Part shown: positions 2,625-20,259 of the stretch, in pieces
Layout: each line of letters starts with the position of its first letter
Position numbering within the stretch: the stretch's first letter is position 1
Origin: a virus
IMG/VR virus record: IMGVR_UViG_3300020213_000282
Location: 1 to 21,283 of that record
Reading direction: 5' to 3' (one strand)
DNA: 21,283 bases
Made by a program: the position numbers and the translations under genes
Notes under the pieces: generated by a model
Database searches by the model: none
Told to the model about the DNA's origin: nothing
What the model saw: the letters and a program-made list of their open reading frames with translations, nothing else

Positions 2625-3347
2625 CTACTGCTTTCCCTGAGCTTTAAGCGCGCGAAGATAATCCACTGACGAGGCAAAAGCATCTGGATTAAGCGTAGCT
2701 CCTGCTGCTCCCGGTCGATTAGACACTGGGTCTATACGAGCGGTTCCATTATCTTTTGTGTGCGTCATTGCGGCTTTTACGGCCGCGTCCGTGTCCCTCA
2801 TGCTTGCGTGTGCAAGGCGGAGGTCTGTGAACTGGTACTTCATTGCGTGCTGCAACAACCTTCCCTCGTTAACTGTTGGGTCACTCTGCTTCACCTCAGT
2901 GAGCTGTGCAACCGCGTTATCTTCGAGAGACTGACGTGCGTCTTGCTCTGCCTGTTGCCGAGCCTGCATACCCCCGAGGATACGCTGCTCAATCTGTTCA
3001 GCAAGAGTGCCATACGTGGGTGGGATGTAATTCGGGTCGTTGAGCGGGTCTGCTTCTGCTGGTTCCGGGCTGCGCTGCTGTCCTTGTCGGAAGGCCGCAA
3101 GGTCCTGAGACCTGCGAGTGAACTCCGGCATAAAGTTCTCTTTCCATTCCTGACTAAGAGTAGCAGCATCCACTTTTCTGCCGTCTGGTAGCTCATAAAG
3201 CTCATTCTCGACTGCGGGGGTGGTTTCCGCTGGTGCATCTGTATCAGGCGCATCCGTTCCTGTCTCGTCAATCGCTGCACCGGCTTCCGTTTCTTCTAAC
3301 GATGTGGCCTCGCTTGGCGATGCGTCGAGGGTTTCTTCTGGGTCCAT
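2625..3347 (-). CDS. capsid scaffolding protein
   Basis: A 240-aa protein starting at ATG 3347. The first 50 residues are strongly acidic and disordered (MDPEETLDASPSEATSLEE and onward, rich in D, E, A, T and P). The centre (about residues 100-175) is a Gln/Glu/Ala/Arg-rich helix likely to form a coiled coil (AEQIEQRILGGMQARQQAEQ). The C-terminus is more basic and ends RALKAQGKQ, like the capsid-binding tails of scaffolding proteins. It lies directly upstream of the major capsid gene and downstream of the portal. The call rests on position, length and composition, since scaffolds share little sequence. No protease motif is seen. Confidence 0.75.
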   Translation of the reverse strand: MDPEETLDASPSEATSLEETEAGAAIDETGTDAPDTDAPAETTPAVENELYELPDGRKVDAATLSQEWKENFMPEFTRRSQDLAAFRQGQQRSPEPAEADPLNDPNYIPPTYGTLAEQIEQRILGGMQARQQAEQDARQSLEDNAVAQLTEVKQSDPTVNEGRLLQHAMKYQFTDLRLAHASMRDTDAAVKAAMTHTKDNGTARIDPVSNRPGAAGATLNPDAFASSVDYLRALKAQGKQ

Positions 3348-3429
3348 ATCAGTTCTTGACTGCCGTACCTTTGCTTGGCCCTAAGGCTGCATTGGCCTGC
3401 TTGGTCATACTTAAGCTAGTAGTAGTTTA

Positions 3430-3459
3430 CCGTCTTTGCGGACGGCCGGAAACATCCGG
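3430..3459 (-). other. two adjacent hairpins between scaffold and the upstream small gene
   Basis: CCGTC (3430-3434) pairs with GACGG (3441-3445). Directly beside it CCGG (3446-3449) pairs with CCGG (3456-3459). They stand in the 123-bp gap between the genes at 3471-3674 and 2625-3347. A further GGCC...GGCC inverted repeat lies at 3378-3398. No T-run follows in the leftward direction, so RNA processing or stability is more plausible than termination. Confidence 0.35.
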
Positions 3460-3470
3460 CATGTTAGTAA

Positions 3471-3674
3471 CTAACCTTTCTTAAATGCATCTATAATTCC
3501 TTTCAGTGGGTTAATAGAACCGTAATACGGTGCTGCCCCACTCTTTAAGTCCTTCTGACCCTGGCTTATATTGCTCCCTATCTGCCTACCAACCGCTTGC
3601 AATTTGTCCTCTGCTCTTTTCTTTTTTGCAGGAACAAATCCAATAATCTCATTCATCTTTTCAGTTAAGCTCAT
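3471..3674 (-). CDS. small basic protein between portal and scaffold
   Basis: A 67-aa protein (MSLTEKMNEIIGFVPAKKKR...). Its ATG overlaps the portal stop codon by ATGA (3671-3674), which indicates translational coupling to the portal gene. The product is basic and probably helical in its first half, with a Gly/Ser-rich centre and a final IDAFKKG. No transmembrane segment or known motif is visible. From its place in the head module it could be a head-assembly or internal virion protein. The function is unknown. Confidence 0.65.
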   Translation of the reverse strand: MSLTEKMNEIIGFVPAKKKRAEDKLQAVGRQIGSNISQGQKDLKSGAAPYYGSINPLKGIIDAFKKG

Positions 3675-5722
3675 GGTGTTGGTTGGTTATTCTTTGAAGC
3701 AAGCGCTTTGTCCTGTCTTTGGTCTTCGCGCACCGCACCCGCTTCTTCTTTGTTTGCATCAGCCTGCTTCTCAGCCATAGCAACAGCAGGATCTAACTGC
3801 AAGCCAGCACGAGCAGCAAGTTGTATTTGTCCATCAAGTGGAAGATCTTGGTATTTAATAGACGTGCTTACAGGACTTTCTTCCTCCTTAGCTGGTGGTG
3901 CAATCTCTGCAAGCTCTTCTGGAGTAAGACCCACTGCGTGTGCTGGATTCATGTTCCATACAACGCTGTTTTTAGCCATCTCAATAGGGTCGTCGTACTG
4001 AGCAATCTTTAGGTAGTCCACCGGCGAAATAATGCCCTTCATAACATCATTCTGTGCTTGCTCAAACTTGAACTCATCATCCACAGGAAGCGTCTTACCT
4101 GGAATAATGATAACCTCCTGGCCCTCTTCAAAGTCATCCTGGATTATTTCCATGTCTTCGAGGTCCCCTTCTTCTCCCTGCCATGAAACTTTGCGGTACT
4201 CAGTGTAACGGCTCTTTGAAAGCTGCATTGCCCAGCCATAGCATTCGCCATACATGTAATCTACAACCTGTACTAACTCATTAAGGCGAAGATACGACTG
4301 TTGAATAAGAGCAAGACGACCCGCCTTGGTCTCCTGTCCCTGTCTCTCTCCACGAAACGCAGACGAAGCGGCCATGATGTTATCAATCTCCTGACGTGAG
4401 TCAACCATGTCATCAAACACCATCTGAGGCAGCGCTGCACCAGTCTCACGAGTTACTCCGTCCTTTACGTTCTTCCCCCAGACAATACCCTTGGTCTGAA
4501 AACGTATACGCTGAGCATCTGACTTGCCCATAGTTCCTGCATCTACTTTAAGAATACCGTTAGCCATCTCGCAGTTCTCATCAATATCCATCTTGCGCTT
4601 GTCGATACCACGCTGGAGTGTAGAAGCAAGCTCAATCATGTCTGTGCGACCGATAGGGCTGTTTTCATTATTGAACACAGTAGCAAACATGTATGGCTTC
4701 CGTGGAGAATCGAAATAATTGAAGTAGTACGGCGTAAAGACACGCGGTGCTTCAACTGGTGCAGCTTGAACATCGCTCGTAGTTGGCTCAAGTTCTCCTT
4801 CCATACCAACAGAACCGCTCTCACCAGCGTTTGTTGGTGCTATTTCGCCGGCCTGGTTTGCCATATCATACTCGGCTCTGCGCTGCTGCTGCTCAAGTTT
4901 AATTGGTGTCAGGAACTGTCTACGGGCCTCTCCTTGAAGTTCTTTAAGTCCTGCACGCTCTTCTTCAGTAAGAAGAATACCCTTCCAGTCCCAATAGGGA
5001 TTCTGGATAACGCCTAGAACAATATTGTCTAACTTAAAGATGACATGATTCACAATCCATGCCTCTTTGTATGTGACGTCAGGATTCTTTACATACATAT
5101 CCTGCTCCCCCTCTTCGGTCTCAGGAAACCCAAACTTTTTCATAAGCACACCCTTCTTTTCAGGGAAGCGTTCTACAAGCGCGCAGAGATTATCTTCAAT
5201 CTCTTCAATAGCAAACTCTGAGTCCTGCTCTTTGGTAGAATACTTTCCTACACGTATCTTGCACGGATCGATTGCACGATAATCAAAATCATCAATTATA
5301 GGATTCCAAAATGCCTTGATGACAATAAGGCGTGCGAAGTACAAGTTGCGTAGTCCCTTACGCATCGTCTCTTTGAGGTTGCGGTCCACAAGCTTCTTCT
5401 TCATGAACTTCTCAAGCCCCATAGCAAAATCCTGCACTTCGGGACCATTGCGACCTGGAAGGATATTGATGCCAGGAGAATTAGCAATAAGCGAGTTGAT
5501 AACCGCTTCCGTGTTCACAAAAACACGATTGGCCATTACGGTCCACTGCTGCCGGGTATAAGGGATAGCGTCGAGCCAACCACTTTTGTTTGAATAAACT
5601 TTGGTGTTATTCTCGTATGTATTCTTTACTGTTTCCCAAAGCTCATCAGAAGACGACCACCGGTTATCAACCAGCTTTGCTTGTGATTCAGTACTTAGTT
5701 TTGCAATGTCGAGTGATGCCAT
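3671..5722 (-). CDS. portal protein
   Basis: A 683-aa protein starting at ATG 5722. It would form the dodecameric ring at the unique capsid vertex through which DNA enters and leaves, and on which the terminase docks. The length matches the large P22-type portal group rather than the 400-500 aa SPP1 or HK97 types. The N-terminal segment DELWETVKNTYENNTKVY leads into a wing/crown-type region (ANRVFVNTEAVINSLIANSPGINILPGRN). A core with RAIDPCKIRVG follows, then a helical stem region (GIDKRKMDIDENCEMANGILKVDAG) and a Gln/Glu/Ala-rich helical tail near residues 640-683 that could be the barrel. The stop overlaps the next ATG. A terminator-like hairpin ends only about 16 nt upstream of the start. 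No Shine-Dalgarno sequence is present. Confidence 0.85.
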   Translation of the reverse strand: MASLDIAKLSTESQAKLVDNRWSSSDELWETVKNTYENNTKVYSNKSGWLDAIPYTRQQWTVMANRVFVNTEAVINSLIANSPGINILPGRNGPEVQDFAMGLEKFMKKKLVDRNLKETMRKGLRNLYFARLIVIKAFWNPIIDDFDYRAIDPCKIRVGKYSTKEQDSEFAIEEIEDNLCALVERFPEKKGVLMKKFGFPETEEGEQDMYVKNPDVTYKEAWIVNHVIFKLDNIVLGVIQNPYWDWKGILLTEEERAGLKELQGEARRQFLTPIKLEQQQRRAEYDMANQAGEIAPTNAGESGSVGMEGELEPTTSDVQAAPVEAPRVFTPYYFNYFDSPRKPYMFATVFNNENSPIGRTDMIELASTLQRGIDKRKMDIDENCEMANGILKVDAGTMGKSDAQRIRFQTKGIVWGKNVKDGVTRETGAALPQMVFDDMVDSRQEIDNIMAASSAFRGERQGQETKAGRLALIQQSYLRLNELVQVVDYMYGECYGWAMQLSKSRYTEYRKVSWQGEEGDLEDMEIIQDDFEEGQEVIIIPGKTLPVDDEFKFEQAQNDVMKGIISPVDYLKIAQYDDPIEMAKNSVVWNMNPAHAVGLTPEELAEIAPPAKEEESPVSTSIKYQDLPLDGQIQLAARAGLQLDPAVAMAEKQADANKEEAGAVREDQRQDKALASKNNQPTP

Positions 5723-6053: not shown

Positions 6054-7656
6054 AGCGCCCGTCAGAATATCCTTCTGCATTAGCTGACCTGAATAGTTCA
6101 CTCGGGTCGTACACGTTGTCTACATCAATAGCATGTGGCTTTTCTTCGCCACCACCTCCTGTTCCAAAGAAAGCTCCATCACCTCCACCCGTTGTTGCCA
6201 TCCATGCGTAGAGCGATGCAAAAACGTAGTGGTCAACCCCAGTAGTAGATGCCCAGATGTATCTCTCGATGCCTTTGTTATTTGTTACCTTCTCTCTGCA
6301 CAGTGTTTCAAAGTGTCGTATGTAATCACCGAAGTCACGGTCAGCCGGAGCGGCAATGAGCCACTTTGCTTCTAACATCTCTGTAAGCATGAGGTCTATC
6401 ACGCGGTCACGGTGTGCGTACACAATACCGTCACGGTCACCTTCACCCCTCCAGATAATTGTTTGTGGATTGTCAGCATTCTCTTTAAAGAACGACATTT
6501 CCATAAACGGATACGTGTCTACGTAGTGCTTCGCTGCTGTGTTATCCGGCATCGCGTCAATGACACCTGCCTGTGGTTTCCACGTTGCAATAATAGAATC
6601 GAGGTCTTCCCACTTTGTAAAGCGACCTATCTTAATGATGCCTCCGTGTGTGCGCACAACATAGTGTTTCATGTTGCCCACGTCTACACCGAGGAACCTT
6701 GGTCCTTGGTCGACGTCAGAGAACCTTGGTGTCCATATATCGAGGAGTGCAGCCTTTGTAATCTGCAAGTCTCCTGGCGTGTACGGGAGGCCAAGCACAA
6801 AGTTATTAAAGTATCCAGGGTCCCCCTCCGAGTCTTCAATAACTTCTTCAATAGTTATATCCGGGCACATGAGATGGGAAATGCGGTATCCATGAACACG
6901 CGAACCAGGACGTTGCGCTTGATATACACCACGTCTTCTTGTATCATCACTCAGTTTACCTTCGCACGTTCTGCACTTGTAAAACTTACCTTCAATGTTT
7001 ACAGAGTCCGGCCACACGAGGTCTTGCTCTGCTTTACAGTGCTCGCATGTAATAGTCCATAAACGCTGGTCAGACTTCTGCCAAGCAATATCAAGTTCAT
7101 CGCGCTCTGACCCGGGATTAGAGAATAACCAACGACCTCTGTACGGACTCGCTTTAGTACGAGATTTATATGTCTCAATAGCGGGCTGATTAGAACGAGA
7201 CACCTCATCATGCACAAGTACATCTGCCGACGTCGAGATAGGAGCTGTACTTGATATAGTACCCTTGAAGAACACAAATCTATCATTCAGTTCTTTGCGG
7301 TCTACGTTATCTGTTGCCATCCCACGAAACTCTGAAGGATTACTTTGTAGTATCTTGTTGAACTTCGAAGCGACAAACTCATTCACATCAGACTCAGTTG
7401 GCATTGTGTAGATGACGTTAAAGCGCAAATGCTTAACGGCAAACAATGTCTTTAGTGAGAATGTTACAGACTTTCCTACCTGAGCACATGCCATCACAAC
7501 CTGAAGTGGATGGAAGTCAGTAAGTATATCTAAGAGGAACGGTCGATTCTTCCAATCAAAAGGCTCCCCTTTCTCAGACACAATACCCTCCTCAGTCAAC
7601 CATTGAAGGATGGAAAAGTACTGTTTCTCTTTAATTATTTTATGCTGTCTTGCCAT
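6043..7656 (-). CDS. terL: terminase large subunit (GpA-like packaging ATPase/nuclease)
   Basis: A 537-aa motor that pumps DNA into the prohead and cuts the concatemer. The N-terminal ATPase has a Walker A element ACAQVGKS (residues 56-63) and a Walker B VLVHDE (146-151) with the catalytic Glu151. A zinc-ribbon-like set C204-x2-C207 and C228-x2-C231 follows, typical of the lambda GpA branch. The C-terminal RNase H-like nuclease shows its acidic residues in FLGVDVGN (D325), GVIDAMPD (D367) and GVDHYVFA (D475). A Gly-rich loop and an acidic tail end the protein. The start overlaps the end of GroEL by 17 nt, and the two genes are co-transcribed. All motifs appear intact. No Shine-Dalgarno sequence is present. 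Confidence 0.93.
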   Translation of the reverse strand: MARQHKIIKEKQYFSILQWLTEEGIVSEKGEPFDWKNRPFLLDILTDFHPLQVVMACAQVGKSVTFSLKTLFAVKHLRFNVIYTMPTESDVNEFVASKFNKILQSNPSEFRGMATDNVDRKELNDRFVFFKGTISSTAPISTSADVLVHDEVSRSNQPAIETYKSRTKASPYRGRWLFSNPGSERDELDIAWQKSDQRLWTITCEHCKAEQDLVWPDSVNIEGKFYKCRTCEGKLSDDTRRRGVYQAQRPGSRVHGYRISHLMCPDITIEEVIEDSEGDPGYFNNFVLGLPYTPGDLQITKAALLDIWTPRFSDVDQGPRFLGVDVGNMKHYVVRTHGGIIKIGRFTKWEDLDSIIATWKPQAGVIDAMPDNTAAKHYVDTYPFMEMSFFKENADNPQTIIWRGEGDRDGIVYAHRDRVIDLMLTEMLEAKWLIAAPADRDFGDYIRHFETLCREKVTNNKGIERYIWASTTGVDHYVFASLYAWMATTGGGDGAFFGTGGGGEEKPHAIDVDNVYDPSELFRSANAEGYSDGRYGG

Positions 7657-9178
7657 CAGTATCTTTTACCACAGTGATAGCCGTCTCGAAGCTGATAAGG
7701 TGCTTCGTGATAGCAACAGCCGACTCTAGTGCAGTGCGTACAACTTTGTGAGGGTCTACAATACCAGCCTTCATCATGTGTACCGTCTCACCCAACACGA
7801 AGTCAATCCCGTACCCTTTTCCATCTTCAAAAACCGCATTCTTACACTTCTCCATACCAGCGTTCTCACACATTTGATTGAACGGCGCGACCATTGCTCT
7901 ACTGAACATAGAGTCAGAGTGTTCATTTGCTGCTTCCATCAAAGCAATACCTCCACCAGGGAGAATGCCTTCCTGCATCGCAGCCTGTGTTGAAGAGATA
8001 GCGTTGTCGAACTTGTACTTCTTTGCGTTGTACTCTGTGTCAGTGTAGACGCCGACACGTATGACACCAATACCTCCTGTGAGAGCAGCAAGACGGTCCT
8101 TCAACTCACCCTTCTGGAAGTCAGATGTAGTGCTCTCTAGCTTGGTCTGCAACTCTTTAACACGCTCTCCTGGATTACCCTTACCTCCGATAATGGTAGT
8201 CCTGTCACGTGTCACTGTAACCTTCTCCGCCCGACCACAAACATCTTTACGCATATCTTCAAGTCGCATACCCTTCTCCTCTGACACGACAGTCGCTCCA
8301 GTGAGCGCAGCAAGGTCAAACAGGAAGTCTCTGGCAGGTGATGCGTTATATGGATTCATTACGCAAGCAATAGTAGCGATACCCTGCATTGCATTCTTTG
8401 CAAGTGAAGCAAGAGCCATACCTTGAACATCGGTTGCAACGAGCAAGATGTGCGTACCAATACCTATATCAGTCAAGAGTGGAATGATCTGCTCGTTCAG
8501 TGACACCGTACGGTCCACGAGGATAATGTATGGGTCAGTAAGAACAGTCTGCGTGTTCTCGTGGTCGTTGATAAAGTACGGAGAGATAAGACCCTTCTCA
8601 AAGCGTAGCCCTCTTACTGTCTCTAAGTAGTATCCAAGCTTCGCACCCTTCTCTACTGTGATAGCTCCTGTGCTACCAACCGTACGGACTGCTTCAGCTA
8701 CTAGCTTTGCAACATCAGCATCGAGGGAAGACACCTCAGCGATACGCTCGATGTCTTTATCTTCTACCGGCACGGACATAGCATTAAGATATGCAAGAGC
8801 CTCTACTAGTCCTGCATCAAGTCGTTCGCGTACGGAGCGTATTTTATAGCTATCTTGGCCCACCTCTTCAAACGCCTCTGAAGCAAGCGCTTGAGTCAAC
8901 ACGGTCGTCGTCGCAGTACCATCACCGCCCTCTGCTGAACTTCGCATGCCTCCCTTCTTCAATAATTGAAGCCCCATGTTCTCATAAGGATCAACAAACT
9001 CTAGGTTGCGTAGGATGGTGATACCATCATCAGCGGTGACAGGATCAAGTCCAGGCCACTCAATAAGAGCAGTCATGCCAACAGCACCAAGTGTAGGAGC
9101 AACTGCATCAGCTGCACGGTCAACACCTGCTTTCACTCGCTCTCTTGCTTCTCTTCCTTTAAGTATTTCTTTTGCCAT
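7640..9178 (-). CDS. groEL: phage-encoded GroEL-type chaperonin, catalytic Asp398 replaced by Asn
   Basis: A 512-aa group I chaperonin from ATG 9178 (MAKEILKG); a TTG 15 nt further upstream is less likely because MAKE is the family's usual N-terminus. It would form a ring that encloses and folds proteins, here probably capsid or other virion proteins. Nucleotide-site motifs are recognisable: VTADDGITI with D51 (E. coli D52), GGDGTATTT with D86 (E. coli D87), and GILPGGGIAL near 404-413. Gap-free alignment back from GGG places N392 at E. coli D398, the residue that activates water for ATP hydrolysis (codons gac aac, so D391-N392). TLGPKG near the N-terminus is changed to TLGAVG. The apical GLISPYFIN and DVQGMALA segments are kept. 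The GGM tail is absent; the protein ends DTDGKTA. It lies 1 nt past the GroES stop and overlaps terL. Confidence 0.95.
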   Translation of the reverse strand: MAKEILKGREARERVKAGVDRAADAVAPTLGAVGMTALIEWPGLDPVTADDGITILRNLEFVDPYENMGLQLLKKGGMRSSAEGGDGTATTTVLTQALASEAFEEVGQDSYKIRSVRERLDAGLVEALAYLNAMSVPVEDKDIERIAEVSSLDADVAKLVAEAVRTVGSTGAITVEKGAKLGYYLETVRGLRFEKGLISPYFINDHENTQTVLTDPYIILVDRTVSLNEQIIPLLTDIGIGTHILLVATDVQGMALASLAKNAMQGIATIACVMNPYNASPARDFLFDLAALTGATVVSEEKGMRLEDMRKDVCGRAEKVTVTRDRTTIIGGKGNPGERVKELQTKLESTTSDFQKGELKDRLAALTGGIGVIRVGVYTDTEYNAKKYKFDNAISSTQAAMQEGILPGGGIALMEAANEHSDSMFSRAMVAPFNQMCENAGMEKCKNAVFEDGKGYGIDFVLGETVHMMKAGIVDPHKVVRTALESAVAITKHLISFETAITVVKDTDGKTA

Positions 9179-9179
9179 A

Positions 9180-9437
9180 TTAAAGAATAGCAATTATATC
9201 TGACACAGCGACTGTCTTCATTTCTTTCCCTTCAATAGAGACTGTGTGTGTGTCTGGAGAGAACTTTGCAAAGATAACTTCAGCTCCTTCAATGAGACGT
9301 ATGTGTTCTACATCCTCTCCTACCTGGACAATACGACCATTGCTTGTAAAGTCATCAATAGCTTTAACCTCTGCGAACCCACCACTGGTATCTTTTTCAA
9401 CACGCTCAAGTAGCACACGGTCTCCTAATATGTTCAT
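9180..9437 (-). CDS. groES: GroES-type co-chaperonin
   Basis: An 85-aa protein starting at ATG 9437, overlapping the upstream stop by ATGA. It begins NILGDRVLLERVEK, the standard Cpn10 opening, and continues GRIVQVGED, EGAEVIFAKFS and a closing VAVSDIIAIL, all matching the beta-barrel core of GroES. It would cap the adjacent phage GroEL. It is shorter than the usual 95-97 aa, and the mobile-loop region reads TSGGFAEVKAIDDFTSNG. The hydrophobic tripeptide after GG (IVL in E. coli), which docks onto GroEL, is not conserved. Phages with a full GroEL and GroES pair are uncommon; T4 gp31 and similar proteins replace only the lid. Confidence 0.88.
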   Translation of the reverse strand: MNILGDRVLLERVEKDTSGGFAEVKAIDDFTSNGRIVQVGEDVEHIRLIEGAEVIFAKFSPDTHTVSIEGKEMKTVAVSDIIAIL

Positions 9438-12529: not shown

Positions 12530-12550
12530 TGGCTATTTAGTTGTCCCCAC

Positions 12551-12564
12551 ATAGAATGTTCTAT
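12551..12564. promoter_or_regulatory. palindromic operator-like site
   Basis: ATAGAA-TG-TTCTAT is a perfect inverted repeat with 6-bp arms, 130 nt upstream of the primase-helicase start. Its half-site TTCTAT also occurs in the promoter word at 11531-11544 and 19009-19022. It could bind a dimeric regulator. Confidence 0.35.
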
Positions 12565-12631
12565 TTCAGAGAAACCTCATGCTATATTTTTACGTATGCA
12601 CCAAACCACTGCCATCTCGTATTTAGCAAAA

Positions 12632-12676
12632 GCCCCCCGATCAATTTCCGCAATGGAGTTGGTGCAGTCGGGGGGC
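12632..12676 (+). other. strong hairpin in the primase-helicase leader
   Basis: GCCCCCCGA (12632-12640) pairs perfectly with TCGGGGGGC (12668-12676). Flanking AAA and TTT can extend the stem with one mismatch. The loop is 27 nt. It ends 17 nt before the ATG at 12694. The T-run is too short for a good terminator, so a translation or RNA-stability role is as likely. Confidence 0.5.
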
Positions 12677-12693
12677 GTTTACTGTACGCGAGT

Positions 12694-14829
12694 ATGAAAC
12701 TCCAGCGCCGTTGGGTAGTTTGGAACGCTGAGGAGGTGAATGGTCGCAAGACTAAGGTTCCCTATTCTGTAAAGGGTCATCGTGCATCGTCCACCGACCC
12801 GAAGGACTGGTGCACGTATGCAGAGGCGAAGAAGGCATCCGAGTTCTTTTCCGGTATCGGTATCATCTTCGGTCCCGACAAGCTCTTGCTCGGAATAGAT
12901 ATCGACCACGTCCTTGTCCCTAACGCGAAGGGAGTACCCATCATCGACAAATCACATGGCGAAGCTGAAAACATCGCAAGACTTATCAAGGAAGCTGGCA
13001 CGTATACAGAAGTCTCTCCGTCCGGCACCGGCCTTCACCTCTACCTCGCCATCGAGGAGCCCCTCGCGCTCGACGCCAATCGGCACTCACCGTATGAGGC
13101 ATATACTTCAGGACGTTTCTTTACGTATAGCGAGCAGGTTTTCGGTACGCGTAAGGCGATTCGGTTAGTTTCCAAAGCCGAGGCCCTGCGGTTGCTTGAG
13201 ATGGTTGGGTATCCTTGGAAAGCTAAGCCACAGAGCACCTTGCTCGCAGACGAGGAGCTGCTCGAACGCATGTTCAAGTCCAAGAACGGTGACGCTGCAC
13301 GCGCATTGTACGAAGGGGACACCTCAGCGTACCTCGACTCTAAGGGTAAGCCTGACCTCTCACGGGCGGACGCTGGCCTCATTGCGCGTCTGGCGTTCTG
13401 GACGCGCAAGGACGCCGTGCAGATGGATCGCATCTGGCTCGCCTCTCCTTTAGGGAAGCGCGAGAAGACTCAGAAGCGTGTTGACTACCGCGTGCGCACC
13501 ATCGCCGCCGCCAACAAGAATTGCACGGAGGTGTACCGCACGGATGAGACGGGTATCGAGTTTCTGTTCACGCTGAACGCAAGAAAAGAAAAGATTATCA
13601 GCAAGAATACCGAGAACGTGGCACGAGCGCTTAGTGGACACCCTGAGTTCAATATCCGCTTTGACGAGTTCAAGAACCGTATTGAGATAGGCGTGGACGA
13701 TAACACCCGCTATCGCCCGTTGTCTGACAGCGACGCCATCGCGGTGCAGACCCGGCTGTCTATCCTGTTTGAGTTCCTTCGCACAGTCAGCAAGGATATG
13801 GTCTTCGACGCCATCGTTAAGGTTGCCAAGGACAATCGCATCGACTCGGCTGCCGACTATATTCGGTCACTGACATGGGACGGCACTCCCCGAATCGACA
13901 CATGGCTTCACGAAACCTACGGGACCACCGACGACATATACCACCGGGCGGTTGGATCCAACGTATTGAAGGGTCTGGTAAAGCGTATCGTCAAGCCTGG
14001 GTGCAAGTTCGACTACGTCCTTGTGCTGGAAGGCCCACAGGGGGCAAAGAAGTCTACGAGCCTATCCATCCTTGGCGCACTCCCTAGCGGGGATAATTGG
14101 CACGTGGAGAGCACCATGACCCCGGACAACAAGGACTTTTTCATGCAGTTCGAAGGTAAGGCACTGATCGAGATGTCCGAGGGTGAGACGTTGAGCCGTA
14201 CTGAGGTGAAAAAAATGAAGGCAGTCATCACCACGGCCGTCGATCGCTACCGCCCCTCTTACGGTCGTGTGGCTGAGGACTTCCCTCGCCGGTGTATCTT
14301 TGCCATGACCACAAACCAGGAGGAGTACCTCAAGGATGAGACGGGCAATCGTCGCTGGCTCCCTGTGCGTGTCATGCTCGCGCAGGCCAACGTCGAGTGG
14401 CTTGCCATCAACCGCGATCAGCTCTTGGCTGAGGCGTACCAGCGTGTGATCGTCGAGAAGGAGACTACGTATGAGTTTCCTGAGGAGGAGACGCTTGCCC
14501 AGCAGAGCGCACGCCTCGTTTCTGACCCTAACGAGGAGCGAATCGTGGAGTGGTATCACGGGAAGGACTTCGGTCCGCATTGCCGTGAGGAAGGTATAAC
14601 GGTGCAGGAGGTCTTCGTCGGCGCACTTGGCAATATGCCTAGCCAGTCTATGAAGAAGTACGAGGAGATGCAGATTGCGAACGTTCTCAGCACGGTACTT
14701 AAACTGGAGAAGATACGCCGAATGGTCAATGGCCACCAGACTACTCGCTGGGTTGACCCGACGATTGTTGAGGACGCTCCGGTTCCCGTTGCTGCCGGCG
14801 TCTGGGATGACCTTCTTAAAAATGATTAA
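12694..14829 (+). CDS. primase-helicase: PrimPol-type N-terminus fused to VapE/D5-type helicase
   Basis: A 711-aa protein from ATG 12694 (MKLQRRWVVWN); upstream in-frame codons run back through the leader hairpin and are not protein-like. The N-terminal part has the primase-polymerase signature: GIDID (D69, D71) and SPSGTGLHLYL with the metal- and nucleotide-site Ser-Gly-His, followed by SGRFFTYS. The C-terminal helicase belongs to the virulence-associated E group of SF3-like/D5 ATPases: Walker A GPQGAKKST (about 447-455), Walker B ALIEMSEGE (about 490-498), and the characteristic TTNQEEYLKDETGNRRWLPV near residue 540. It would open the origin and prime replication. It lies next to the repeat array, and its end overlaps the RecB-like nuclease by 8 nt. 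Codon use is GC-rich compared with the left arm. Confidence 0.88.
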   Translation: MKLQRRWVVWNAEEVNGRKTKVPYSVKGHRASSTDPKDWCTYAEAKKASEFFSGIGIIFGPDKLLLGIDIDHVLVPNAKGVPIIDKSHGEAENIARLIKEAGTYTEVSPSGTGLHLYLAIEEPLALDANRHSPYEAYTSGRFFTYSEQVFGTRKAIRLVSKAEALRLLEMVGYPWKAKPQSTLLADEELLERMFKSKNGDAARALYEGDTSAYLDSKGKPDLSRADAGLIARLAFWTRKDAVQMDRIWLASPLGKREKTQKRVDYRVRTIAAANKNCTEVYRTDETGIEFLFTLNARKEKIISKNTENVARALSGHPEFNIRFDEFKNRIEIGVDDNTRYRPLSDSDAIAVQTRLSILFEFLRTVSKDMVFDAIVKVAKDNRIDSAADYIRSLTWDGTPRIDTWLHETYGTTDDIYHRAVGSNVLKGLVKRIVKPGCKFDYVLVLEGPQGAKKSTSLSILGALPSGDNWHVESTMTPDNKDFFMQFEGKALIEMSEGETLSRTEVKKMKAVITTAVDRYRPSYGRVAEDFPRRCIFAMTTNQEEYLKDETGNRRWLPVRVMLAQANVEWLAINRDQLLAEAYQRVIVEKETTYEFPEEETLAQQSARLVSDPNEERIVEWYHGKDFGPHCREEGITVQEVFVGALGNMPSQSMKKYEEMQIANVLSTVLKLEKIRRMVNGHQTTRWVDPTIVEDAPVPVAAGVWDDLLKND

Positions 14830-16131: not shown

Positions 16132-18057
16132 ATGAACCTTCGACCCGCACAGGAACGCATCCTTAAAGAGAACCCCAGTAAGGCACTCCTGAATTGGGAG
16201 ATGCGATGTATTCATCCTGACACTTTAATTTATGATCCTGTTAAAAAAGAAAGTTATAAAGTAAAAGACATAAAGAATGATTTCCATGTTTACTCTAAAA
16301 ATGAAGATGGCCTTATTGTAATAGCCGAAGCTGAAAGACCAATTCAGTACGGCATGGCACCAATGATTGAGATTTCTTTCTTTAACAAAGAAAGAATAGT
16401 AGTCACACCTCTGCACCGCTTTTTTCTCGGTGCTTCCTGGGTCTACGCGTACCAGCTAATATCCTCGCCCTCCCCTCTTCCGTCCATTTCGGAACACGAC
16501 CCTTCAGTGTTATTCGCAAATGTTCACCATTGTTCTGGAACAATCGTAAATTTTCTACTCTATTGTCATCCTTTATTCCGTTTTTGTGGTCAACTACTTC
16601 AGTGGGTAGTAAATATCTACCAAGGCTTTCTTCCATCACTAATCGGTGCTCTGACACTGTCCTGTTTTTCTTTCTGTAAGGATGTTCTGGGGTATATATT
16701 TCCACATATCCCTTTGAATACCTCCTCCCACCTTTCCAAGACGAATGAGTGCTGCCGTGTTGATAAGAATGACCTGAACGAATTTGAACTCCATTCTTTG
16801 TTAGCACAGCAAGTATTATCCTCTCATGTACACCAAAGATTTTTCTTATCTTATCTTTTGACAAACCTTTATTGTAAAGTTCTAAACACTTTTCAATCAT
16901 ACGCAAAGTATACTACTATTAGGGAAGCTAGGATAGTCCAGTCTCAAAGGTACTACGATTTTCACGTGCCCTTACATAATAATTATCTTTGCTCAGGAGT
17001 AGTAAATCATAATACAGGCAAGTCGCTCCCAGCTGCCGTCTGGGCCGATCACCCGTCACGCGATGGCAACGCGTACATTATTACCCGCAAGGCGAACGTG
17101 ACCGATTGGAAGAAACATAAGACGAAGGCGAAGGTGATCACGAAGGAGCAGTTCCGGAAGGAGGATATCGTTGACCCTACGGCGCTCGTCATAGATGAGG
17201 CGCACTTTTTTGCGTCCCCTTTATTCCTCAAGGGTCGCTCTCAGCTTGCCACCAAGCTGTATACGCTGGTGAAGCGATACCCTGAGTGTCATATCCTTTT
17301 GCTGACGGCTACCCCGGTCAAGAACGACGCATGGTCCCTGCACACCCTATTTTGCTACATGGGTCTGTACTACGACTGGAAGGAGTGGCGTACCATGTTC
17401 TTCGAGCAGCGTCCCATGCCCTACCTACCGCGACCTCGTTGGATGCCTGTTGGTCAGGTTCCCACGGCATGGGTACCCCGAGGGAACTGGCGCGAGCTCT
17501 TGCAGCCGTTCCTTGAGAAGCATAGCGACACGGAGGTGCTAGGCAAGGAGGACAAGGACGATATCATCGTGCAAGTGAAACAGCCTGTATATAAAAAGCC
17601 CGAGGACCAACTTGTTACCTGGACCCATGAGCACAAGCACGAGCAGGTGGGGAAGGCCGAGCGGGTGCTCGCCCTTCCGTACCGCAAGGCTATCGTCGCC
17701 GCCCACTATACCTACCAGATTGACGAGCTCAAGGAGGCGCTGGGGGCCGTCCGGCCCGTCTTTGTGATGGATGGTCGCACCAAGGACCCGGACGCCGTCC
17801 TGAAGGCTGCACAGGAGGCTGAGGAGGGGTATCTTTTGGTTCAGGCTTCTATGGGATACGGTTGGGACGGCTGGATGTTCGAGGCGCTCGTCTTCGCCTC
17901 CATGGCGCACCCCTGTGTCCACCACACGCAGATGAGGGGGCGCCTACGCTCCATAGAGCACCTTGCGCCCGTCGATAACGTCTACCTGATTGGTGGCCGG
18001 TGGGACAAGAAAATATACGATACTGTAAAAGCTGGCCATGACTTCCAAGCTCCCTGA
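16132..18057 (+). CDS. SNF2/DEAH-type helicase interrupted by an intein in the P-loop
   Basis: The full frame is 641 aa; removing the 269-aa intein (residues 26-294) leaves a 372-aa superfamily 2 helicase. Motif I is split: the N-extein ends LLNWEMR and the C-extein resumes [10 protein letters not shown], together giving EMRTGKS, comparable to the EMGLGKT of SNF2 proteins. Motif II is VIDEAHFF (D355-H358), motif [10 protein letters not shown] (T392-T394), and motif VI QMRGRLR (Q600-R606). The helicase is compact, like phage UvsW/SNF2-like remodelling helicases. It would unwind or branch-migrate DNA, fitting the SSB, nuclease and resolvase around it. Without protein splicing the ATP site is destroyed, so activity depends on the intein. 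Its 3' end overlaps the resolvase-like gene by 20 nt. Extein DNA is GC-rich. Confidence 0.88.
16207..17013 (+). mobile_element. intein (269 aa) with an antisense endonuclease gene inside
   Basis: Splicing block A starts at Cys1, [10 protein letters not shown] (16207-16236). Block B is [10 protein letters not shown] with the T-x-x-H (about 16402-16431). Block F/G is [21 protein letters not shown], ending in the terminal His-Asn (17008-17013), with Thr as the +1 residue. No LAGLIDADG or sense-strand HNH lies between blocks B and F. Instead this part is the complement of the leftward HNH gene 16403-16900, while the sense frame has no stop. The element is AT-rich: 27% G+C in 16201-16260 and 35% in 16561-16620, against 60% in 17041-17100 of the extein. 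That indicates recent arrival. The splicing residues look intact, so splicing is expected. Confidence 0.9.
16403..16900 (-). CDS. HNH homing endonuclease encoded antisense within the intein
   Basis: A 165-aa product from ATG 16900; a TTG at 16906 would add two residues. The N-terminal 40 residues form a helix-turn-helix-like segment ([19 protein letters not shown], then [11 protein letters not shown]) suited to DNA binding. The HNH_3-type nuclease follows: [51 protein letters not shown], with the D-H (104-105), the central N and the final N-x-x (N117) of the beta-beta-alpha-metal motif. The tail is basic. Its TGA (16405-16403) falls in the codons for V-T of intein block B, so the last codons overlap the splicing domain. 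TATACT lies 7 nt upstream of the ATG, without a -35. It probably spreads the intein by cutting intein-free helicase genes. Confidence 0.85.
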
Positions 18058-19905: not shown

Positions 19906-20259
19906 ATGAACTTCAAAACAATAACAGGAGGCACCGAAGCAGAAGCACTAGCGAAGTTCCCTTGGTTAAACGACGCTTCCTTTGAAGACGCGATTGTTGA
20001 CATTACTCACTACTATCTTGTTTGGGAGGGCGGCACTTGGGAGGGCGGCACTTGGAAGGATGGCACTTGGGAGGATGGCATTTGGGAGCGTGGCATTTGG
20101 AAGGATGGCATTTGGGAGGATGGCATTTGGAAGCGTGGCATTTGGAAGGATGGCACTTGGGAGGGTGGCCTTTGGGAGGATGGCCTAATGTGGTCAAACA
20201 TTCACCAAGAGTACAAACGTGTCGCTTACGAAGACGGGAAGTTTACTGTAGCGGAATAA
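19906..20259 (+). CDS. pentapeptide Trp-Gly repeat protein (117 aa)
   Basis: From ATG 19906: about 40 residues of ordinary sequence (MNFKTITGGTEAEALAKFPW...) are followed by eleven five-residue repeats (residues 41-95) of the form [EK]-x-G-[TIL]-W, for example EGGTW, KDGTW, EDGIW, ERGIW. A short end follows (SNIHQEYKRVAYEDGKFTVAE). A strict period of five with a Trp in each unit suggests a right-handed beta-helix or solenoid with a tryptophan ladder, related in logic to the pentapeptide-repeat fold but with different core residues. The function is unknown; DNA mimicry is known for classical pentapeptide-repeat proteins but cannot be claimed here. All six frames look open over the repeats because the 15-nt unit is in phase. 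Confidence 0.75.
   Translation: MNFKTITGGTEAEALAKFPWLNDASFEDAIVDITHYYLVWEGGTWEGGTWKDGTWEDGIWERGIWKDGIWEDGIWKRGIWKDGTWEGGLWEDGLMWSNIHQEYKRVAYEDGKFTVAE
20026..20190 (+). repeat. 15-nt tandem repeat, 11 copies
   Basis: The unit is approximately GAGGATGGCATTTGG, beginning at 20026 and repeating every 15 nt. Third-position and first-codon changes are spread unevenly. The first two units are identical, and later ones alternate between GAG and AAG at codon 1 and between GGC, GAT and CGT at codon 2. It probably expands and contracts by slippage or unequal exchange without breaking the frame. Confidence 0.85.

Follow-up and report, generated by a model that had tools for sequence, protein, structure and literature searches.

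In textbook mobile inteins the endonuclease forms a domain of the intein polypeptide itself, and the gene for I-HmuI lies in a group I intron. Dassa and colleagues reportedly described fractured genes in 2009, in which an endonuclease gene separates the halves of split inteins. There are also large bifunctional inteins with a nested endonuclease domain, e.g., the archaeal VMA and CDC21 inteins (PMC8966425, PMC6801210), and a conserved site of endonuclease insertion within inteins is already known (PMC6801210). In phages, P-loop inteins are found in large terminases, for example TerL-a and TerL-b of mycobacteriophages (PMC5050341). The locus analysed here lies in a viral DNA stretch of 21,283 nucleotides (the window; positions 1 to 21,283 of IMG/VR record IMGVR_UViG_3300020213_000282) and is very probably a mobile intein in which one strand encodes the splicing function and the other strand of the same DNA the endonuclease. 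The features are collected in Table 1.

In the initial annotation the insert was an intein that interrupts the Walker A motif of a phage helicase; sequence comparison and modelling confirm this. Pfam PF14890 (Intein_splicing) matches it in two stretches, in its N- and C-terminal parts, with a value for the insert alone (1.3e-06) that falls short of Pfam's curated cut-off. In an alignment of the window intein with 53 related inteins Cys1, the block B His70 and Asn269 are invariant, Asp251 (block F) and His268 are nearly so; in the window intein a Thr occupies position +1. The insert sits between EMR and TGKS, and once it is removed a protein of 372 aa with an intact P-loop is left. In the AlphaFold model residues 1-80 and 241-269 reach pLDDT values of ca. 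95-98, and most of residues 91-230 stay at 37-55; the model superimposes on the Mtu RecA mini-intein with a Z of 18.6 over 128 residues (2.2 Å, VIA-align). The window intein is thus predicted to be a mini-intein (HINT) fold with a disordered middle, in which the model and the divergence of the sense protein give no sign of a sense-strand domain. Were the insert a normal helicase domain, other helicases should carry all 269 residues; instead, the relatives keep the splicing halves only, and the middle diverges as a sense protein and is conserved only as an antisense endonuclease.

Two further points of that annotation hold in part. The host protein is a helicase, mainly by its similarity to PHROG 62 (7e-14), but the SNF2 assignment comes from Pfam only at E 0.01. 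The insert is indeed lower in G+C than the host gene, but at 37.9% overall (C-extein, 57.7%) and not at the proposed 27-35%. Relatives with an uninterrupted EMRTGKS were looked for: in searches of phages and IMG/VR neither close relatives of the whole window protein nor an intein-free allele of this helicase were found.

Table 1. Coordinates of the features discussed in the text. Positions refer to the window unless another locus or accession is named.
Feature	Position	Strand	Remarks
Helicase precursor frame	16132-18057	+	641 aa, open throughout
N-extein of helicase	16132-16206	+	25 aa, C-terminal end ...ALLNWEMR
Intein insert	16207-17013	+	269 aa, C1...N269, between EMR and TGKS
Splicing domain, N-terminal half	16207-16455	+	Cys1; block B T67-P-L-H70; conserved columns; pLDDT 95-98 over residues 1-80
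Intein middle, opposite the endonuclease gene	16456-16905	+	ca. 150 sense codons, stop-free, predicted disordered; sense protein not conserved in the family
Splicing domain, C-terminal half	16906-17013	+	Asp251, ...VVNH268 N269; Pfam match, conserved columns, model
C-extein of helicase	17014-18057	+	begins TGKS (Thr+1)
HTH+HNH homing endonuclease gene	16403-16900	-	165 aa; ATG at 16900, stop 16403-16405; HNH_3 2e-10
HNH_3 core of the endonuclease	16535-16648	-	protein residues 85-122; Pfam; HNH residues invariant in the family
Cpn60	7640-9193	-	GroEL-like, 6e-39
Cpn10	9180-9437	-	GroES-like, 1.5e-08
VapE-like/DUF5906 protein	12541-14829	+	762 aa, NrS-1-polymerase-like HBD domain
Repeat protein	19906-20259	+	117 aa, tandem five-residue repeats W-E/K-G/D-G-T/I; no Pfam match
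L113, AAA+ ATPase with an apparent natural split intein	2928-4934	-	HNH gene antisense between the halves
L167 (E. coli MEI003)	NZ_CP071263.1 148657-155461		intein-bearing terminase

The other genes of the window include the phage's own chaperonin pair, which adjoins a GpA-type terminase, a repeat protein, and a VapE-like protein that is a probable primase-helicase of the replication module.

The intein reading was incomplete, for it overlooked a minus-strand HNH gene filling the middle of the intein. These ca. 150 residues are not a domain but the reverse complement of a complete gene, whose product combines an N-terminal helix-turn-helix with an HNH_3 domain (PF13392, E 2e-10, over the curated cut-off; PHROG HNH families, down to 8.8e-25) and has the invariant HNH residues of its family. 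The gene is on the minus strand and in a phase other than that of the sense frame, and its product is not a domain of the intein polypeptide. Its start lies at the beginning of the C-terminal splicing half, and its last 53 nt reach into the coding sequence of the folded N-terminal half. Modelled by AlphaFold from an alignment with 54 relatives, the endonuclease has a mean pLDDT of 89, and the closest solved structure is I-HmuI, with modest scores (Z 6.7 over 80 residues, Foldseek E 0.62). Its nearest relatives are ca. 50-56% identical, and we found no close relative of the window intein. A gene of this kind would explain how the intein moves, and the endonuclease probably spreads it.

The arrangement is not peculiar to the window. 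In a first scan the nearest endonuclease relatives (L005-L007) were all antisense inside ORFs of 700-900 aa, and so were those of Pectobacterium phage Taid and Pseudoalteromonas phage PHS3 in the phage collection. We then took the best 80 relatives of the endonuclease in IMG/VR, chosen without regard to the opposite strand. All but one (79/80) are antisense within a contiguous P-loop intein, in a single phase throughout, and the opposite strand of these 79 holds one long frame of 394-1175 aa; the 80th (L113) is flanked by the two halves of a split intein. A long opposite-strand ORF is absent from the more distant, free-standing HNH genes. Where both ends of the insert are present in the sense ORF, they always read C1 ... 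HN|S/T/C, and the 54 insertion sites that could be resolved are all in a P-loop (42 x|[STC]xK[ST], 9 GK|T and 3 close variants). The host proteins are mostly terminases, together with SNF2 and ResIII/DEAD helicases, AAA_24, an SMC-like ATPase and an AAA+ protein. A further scan brought the set to 163 contiguous loci, which form 95 clusters when grouped at 90% nucleotide identity. Among the carriers in culture are Pectobacterium phages, phage PHS3, Enterobacter cloacae DSM 26481 and E. coli MEI003. Inteins with an antisense endonuclease are, in other words, a widespread class found in many phages.

Permuting synonymous codons within each endonuclease rules out that the sense frame is open by chance. 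For 57 loci 205 sense-frame stops were expected and none was present (ca. 1.5 loci would be open by chance), and for the 95 clusters the figures were 525 and zero. The other two antisense phases of the 57 loci hold 211 and 398 stops, and in free-standing relatives 45 stops were found against 47 expected. These permutation sets consist of contiguous cases only, with zero sense stops by definition, so the unselected 79/80 is the fair statistic. A second line of evidence comes from the codon positions. Among 38 independent pairs the differences at endonuclease codon positions 1, 2 and 3 number 1192, 955 and 2453. In the shared phase the wobble position of an endonuclease codon falls on the second position of a sense codon, and its second position on the wobble position of the sense frame. 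The sense third base is the most variable one in the splicing halves; opposite the endonuclease it is the sense second base (0.43 vs. 0.17 at the third). From these patterns it follows that the endonuclease is under selection at the protein level, and that the sense middle is mainly under selection against stops.

A second scan used the N-terminal splicing half as query and was therefore blind to the endonuclease. Of the 80 loci returned, 74 have the antisense gene, one is cut short, and five, which sit in the P-loop of TerL, are natural mini-inteins with a length of 129-139 aa. Two of the latter (L249 and L252) are 86-88% identical in their N-half to L247, a 315-aa intein that does carry the antisense gene. 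Alleles without any intein were also found. For the terminase intein of E. cloacae DSM 26481 (L135) such alleles come from Escherichia phage PHB10, at 92% identity over 1323 nt, and from E. coli ET729, and in these empty alleles the junction is exactly GFG|SGK. As a separate observation, the C-terminal reading of the endonuclease overlaps the N-half in three of the five mini-inteins. In L096 (3890-4618) and L249 (2586-2771) the endonuclease frame extends ca. 60 codons into the N-half antisense, in L249 even though it is a mini-intein, and this could be a truly dual-coding stretch.

The single departure from the contiguous form among the 80 nearest endonuclease relatives, L113, might be taken for a free-standing exception, but inspection of the locus speaks against this. 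Six stops separate its N-half from its C-half, which share a frame; the C-half has a start of its own, an ATG behind the Shine-Dalgarno-like AAAGAGG, and an AAA+ ATPase downstream. L113 appears to be a split intein that arose from the contiguous form. Two separate ORFs are found only here, and the frame of the window is continuous.

Distances between endonucleases correlate with those between splicing domains (Mantel r 0.55, with 0 of 2000 permutations as high), and the nested endonucleases are strongly clustered in the tree (3 changes vs. 26 when shuffled). One free-standing gene, from phage Thibault (L163), falls inside the nested group on a long branch; it was not counted as nested and is the only free-standing member left there after L113 was reclassified. 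The constant phase fits either one origin or a strong phase preference. The two-strand arrangement also accounts for the way in which annotation pipelines split such loci into an "HNH endonuclease" and a truncated or pseudogenised terminase. In E. coli MEI003 the annotation gives an "HNH endonuclease" and a terminase pseudogene without N-terminus, for a sense frame that is open over 802 codons, and in phage PHS3 the terminase start was placed after the intein, beside the HNH gene. In the Pectobacterium phages the whole precursor is annotated as "hypothetical protein". Close to its C-terminus the sense ORF of MEI003 also contains a short duplication.

The architecture, its recurrence, the constraint on both strands and the alleles without intein or without endonuclease were all computed directly. 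The model that we favour for them would work as follows. The helicase precursor would be translated straight through on the sense strand, and the splicing halves would fold together around a floppy loop of ca. 150 residues. The intein would then excise by means of Cys1, His70, Asn269 and Thr+1, restoring the P-loop and releasing the helicase. From the antisense strand the separate HTH+HNH gene would provide a free endonuclease protein able to cut intein-free P-loop alleles, into which repair would copy the intein. Selection would keep the endonuclease as a protein and, on the sense strand, mainly forbid stops.

That this is instead an ordinary intein with a sense-encoded middle domain, and the minus-strand HNH match a by-product, is hardly credible. 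The sense frame is open throughout, which speaks for this reading, but its middle is disordered in the model and diverges while the endonuclease is conserved, the codon-position pattern contradicts it, and the HNH matches are at 2e-10 to 8.8e-25. Nor does it seem other than very improbable that the insert fails to splice and has inactivated the helicase. Splicing is here deduced from the sequence, which leaves room for such a view, but all the catalytic residues are kept, and dozens of lineages have maintained an open sense frame, for which a dead gene would have no use. That the insert simply disrupts the host gene was likewise judged unlikely, given the kept residues, the intein-free alleles and the open frames.

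A more serious alternative, which we nevertheless consider unlikely, accepts the arrangement as real and takes the window endonuclease for an inactive or unexpressed passenger, in an intein that only splices. In the window no Shine-Dalgarno match precedes the start of the endonuclease, a search for a sigma-70-like promoter gave none, and the protein is divergent from its relatives. Against this, the gene is intact with the family-invariant HNH residues, and the family is under strong protein-level selection. Across the family the ATGs of the endonuclease frame have better Shine-Dalgarno sequences than other nearby ATGs (-4.0 vs. -2.3 kcal/mol, p 2e-6), and we infer that the endonuclease is expressed separately, from an antisense transcript. 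The initial annotation had also proposed that splicing gates the activity of the helicase and hence replication, since the P-loop exists only after splicing. This idea is compatible with the two-strand intein that we prefer but is not supported and appears quite improbable: the P-loop placement is common to all 54 members with resolved boundaries, mostly terminases, as expected from an endonuclease that targets a conserved motif, and no evidence of conditional splicing was found.

If the two-strand reading is true, splicing and homing would be the work of separate proteins from opposite strands. Dozens of lineages have kept the frame open over 100-200 codons, which lets translation of the host gene pass through an antisense gene, and this is a very clear natural case of two-strand coding. 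The arrangement also suggests how split inteins arise, as a sense stop and a new start before the C-half would separate the two halves and leave the endonuclease between them, the state seen in L113. We tentatively propose, with somewhat less than even confidence, that these loci represent a general and long-lived class of mobile phage elements, in which the two strands of one piece of DNA each hold a gene, and that such elements are a natural source of split inteins. Since there are cultured carriers, splicing, cutting and antisense expression are directly testable.

The literature searched, with most subscription journals and bioRxiv outside its scope, held no earlier report of an endonuclease antisense inside a contiguous intein. 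Such a search does not prove novelty, and both inteins with nested endonucleases and P-loop inteins in TerL are already known. With the bifunctional inteins the present ones share the HINT domain, the position of the endonuclease between the N- and C-terminal splicing blocks and the insertion in a conserved host motif. They differ in the strand of the endonuclease gene, which is the opposite one and would yield a separate protein, and in the sense polypeptide, which has an unstructured stretch in place of the domain. TerL-a and TerL-b share the insertion in Walker A, at adjacent positions like the two seen here, and a search of that paper (PMC5050341) gave no mention of opposite-strand endonucleases. 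The HNH core (Pfam HNH_3) is common to I-HmuI-type endonucleases, but here the gene is antisense in an intein. Fractured genes resemble L113 in having a split intein with an endonuclease gene between the halves; in the window and in 163 other loci, in contrast, the intein is contiguous and a single sense frame spans the endonuclease region.
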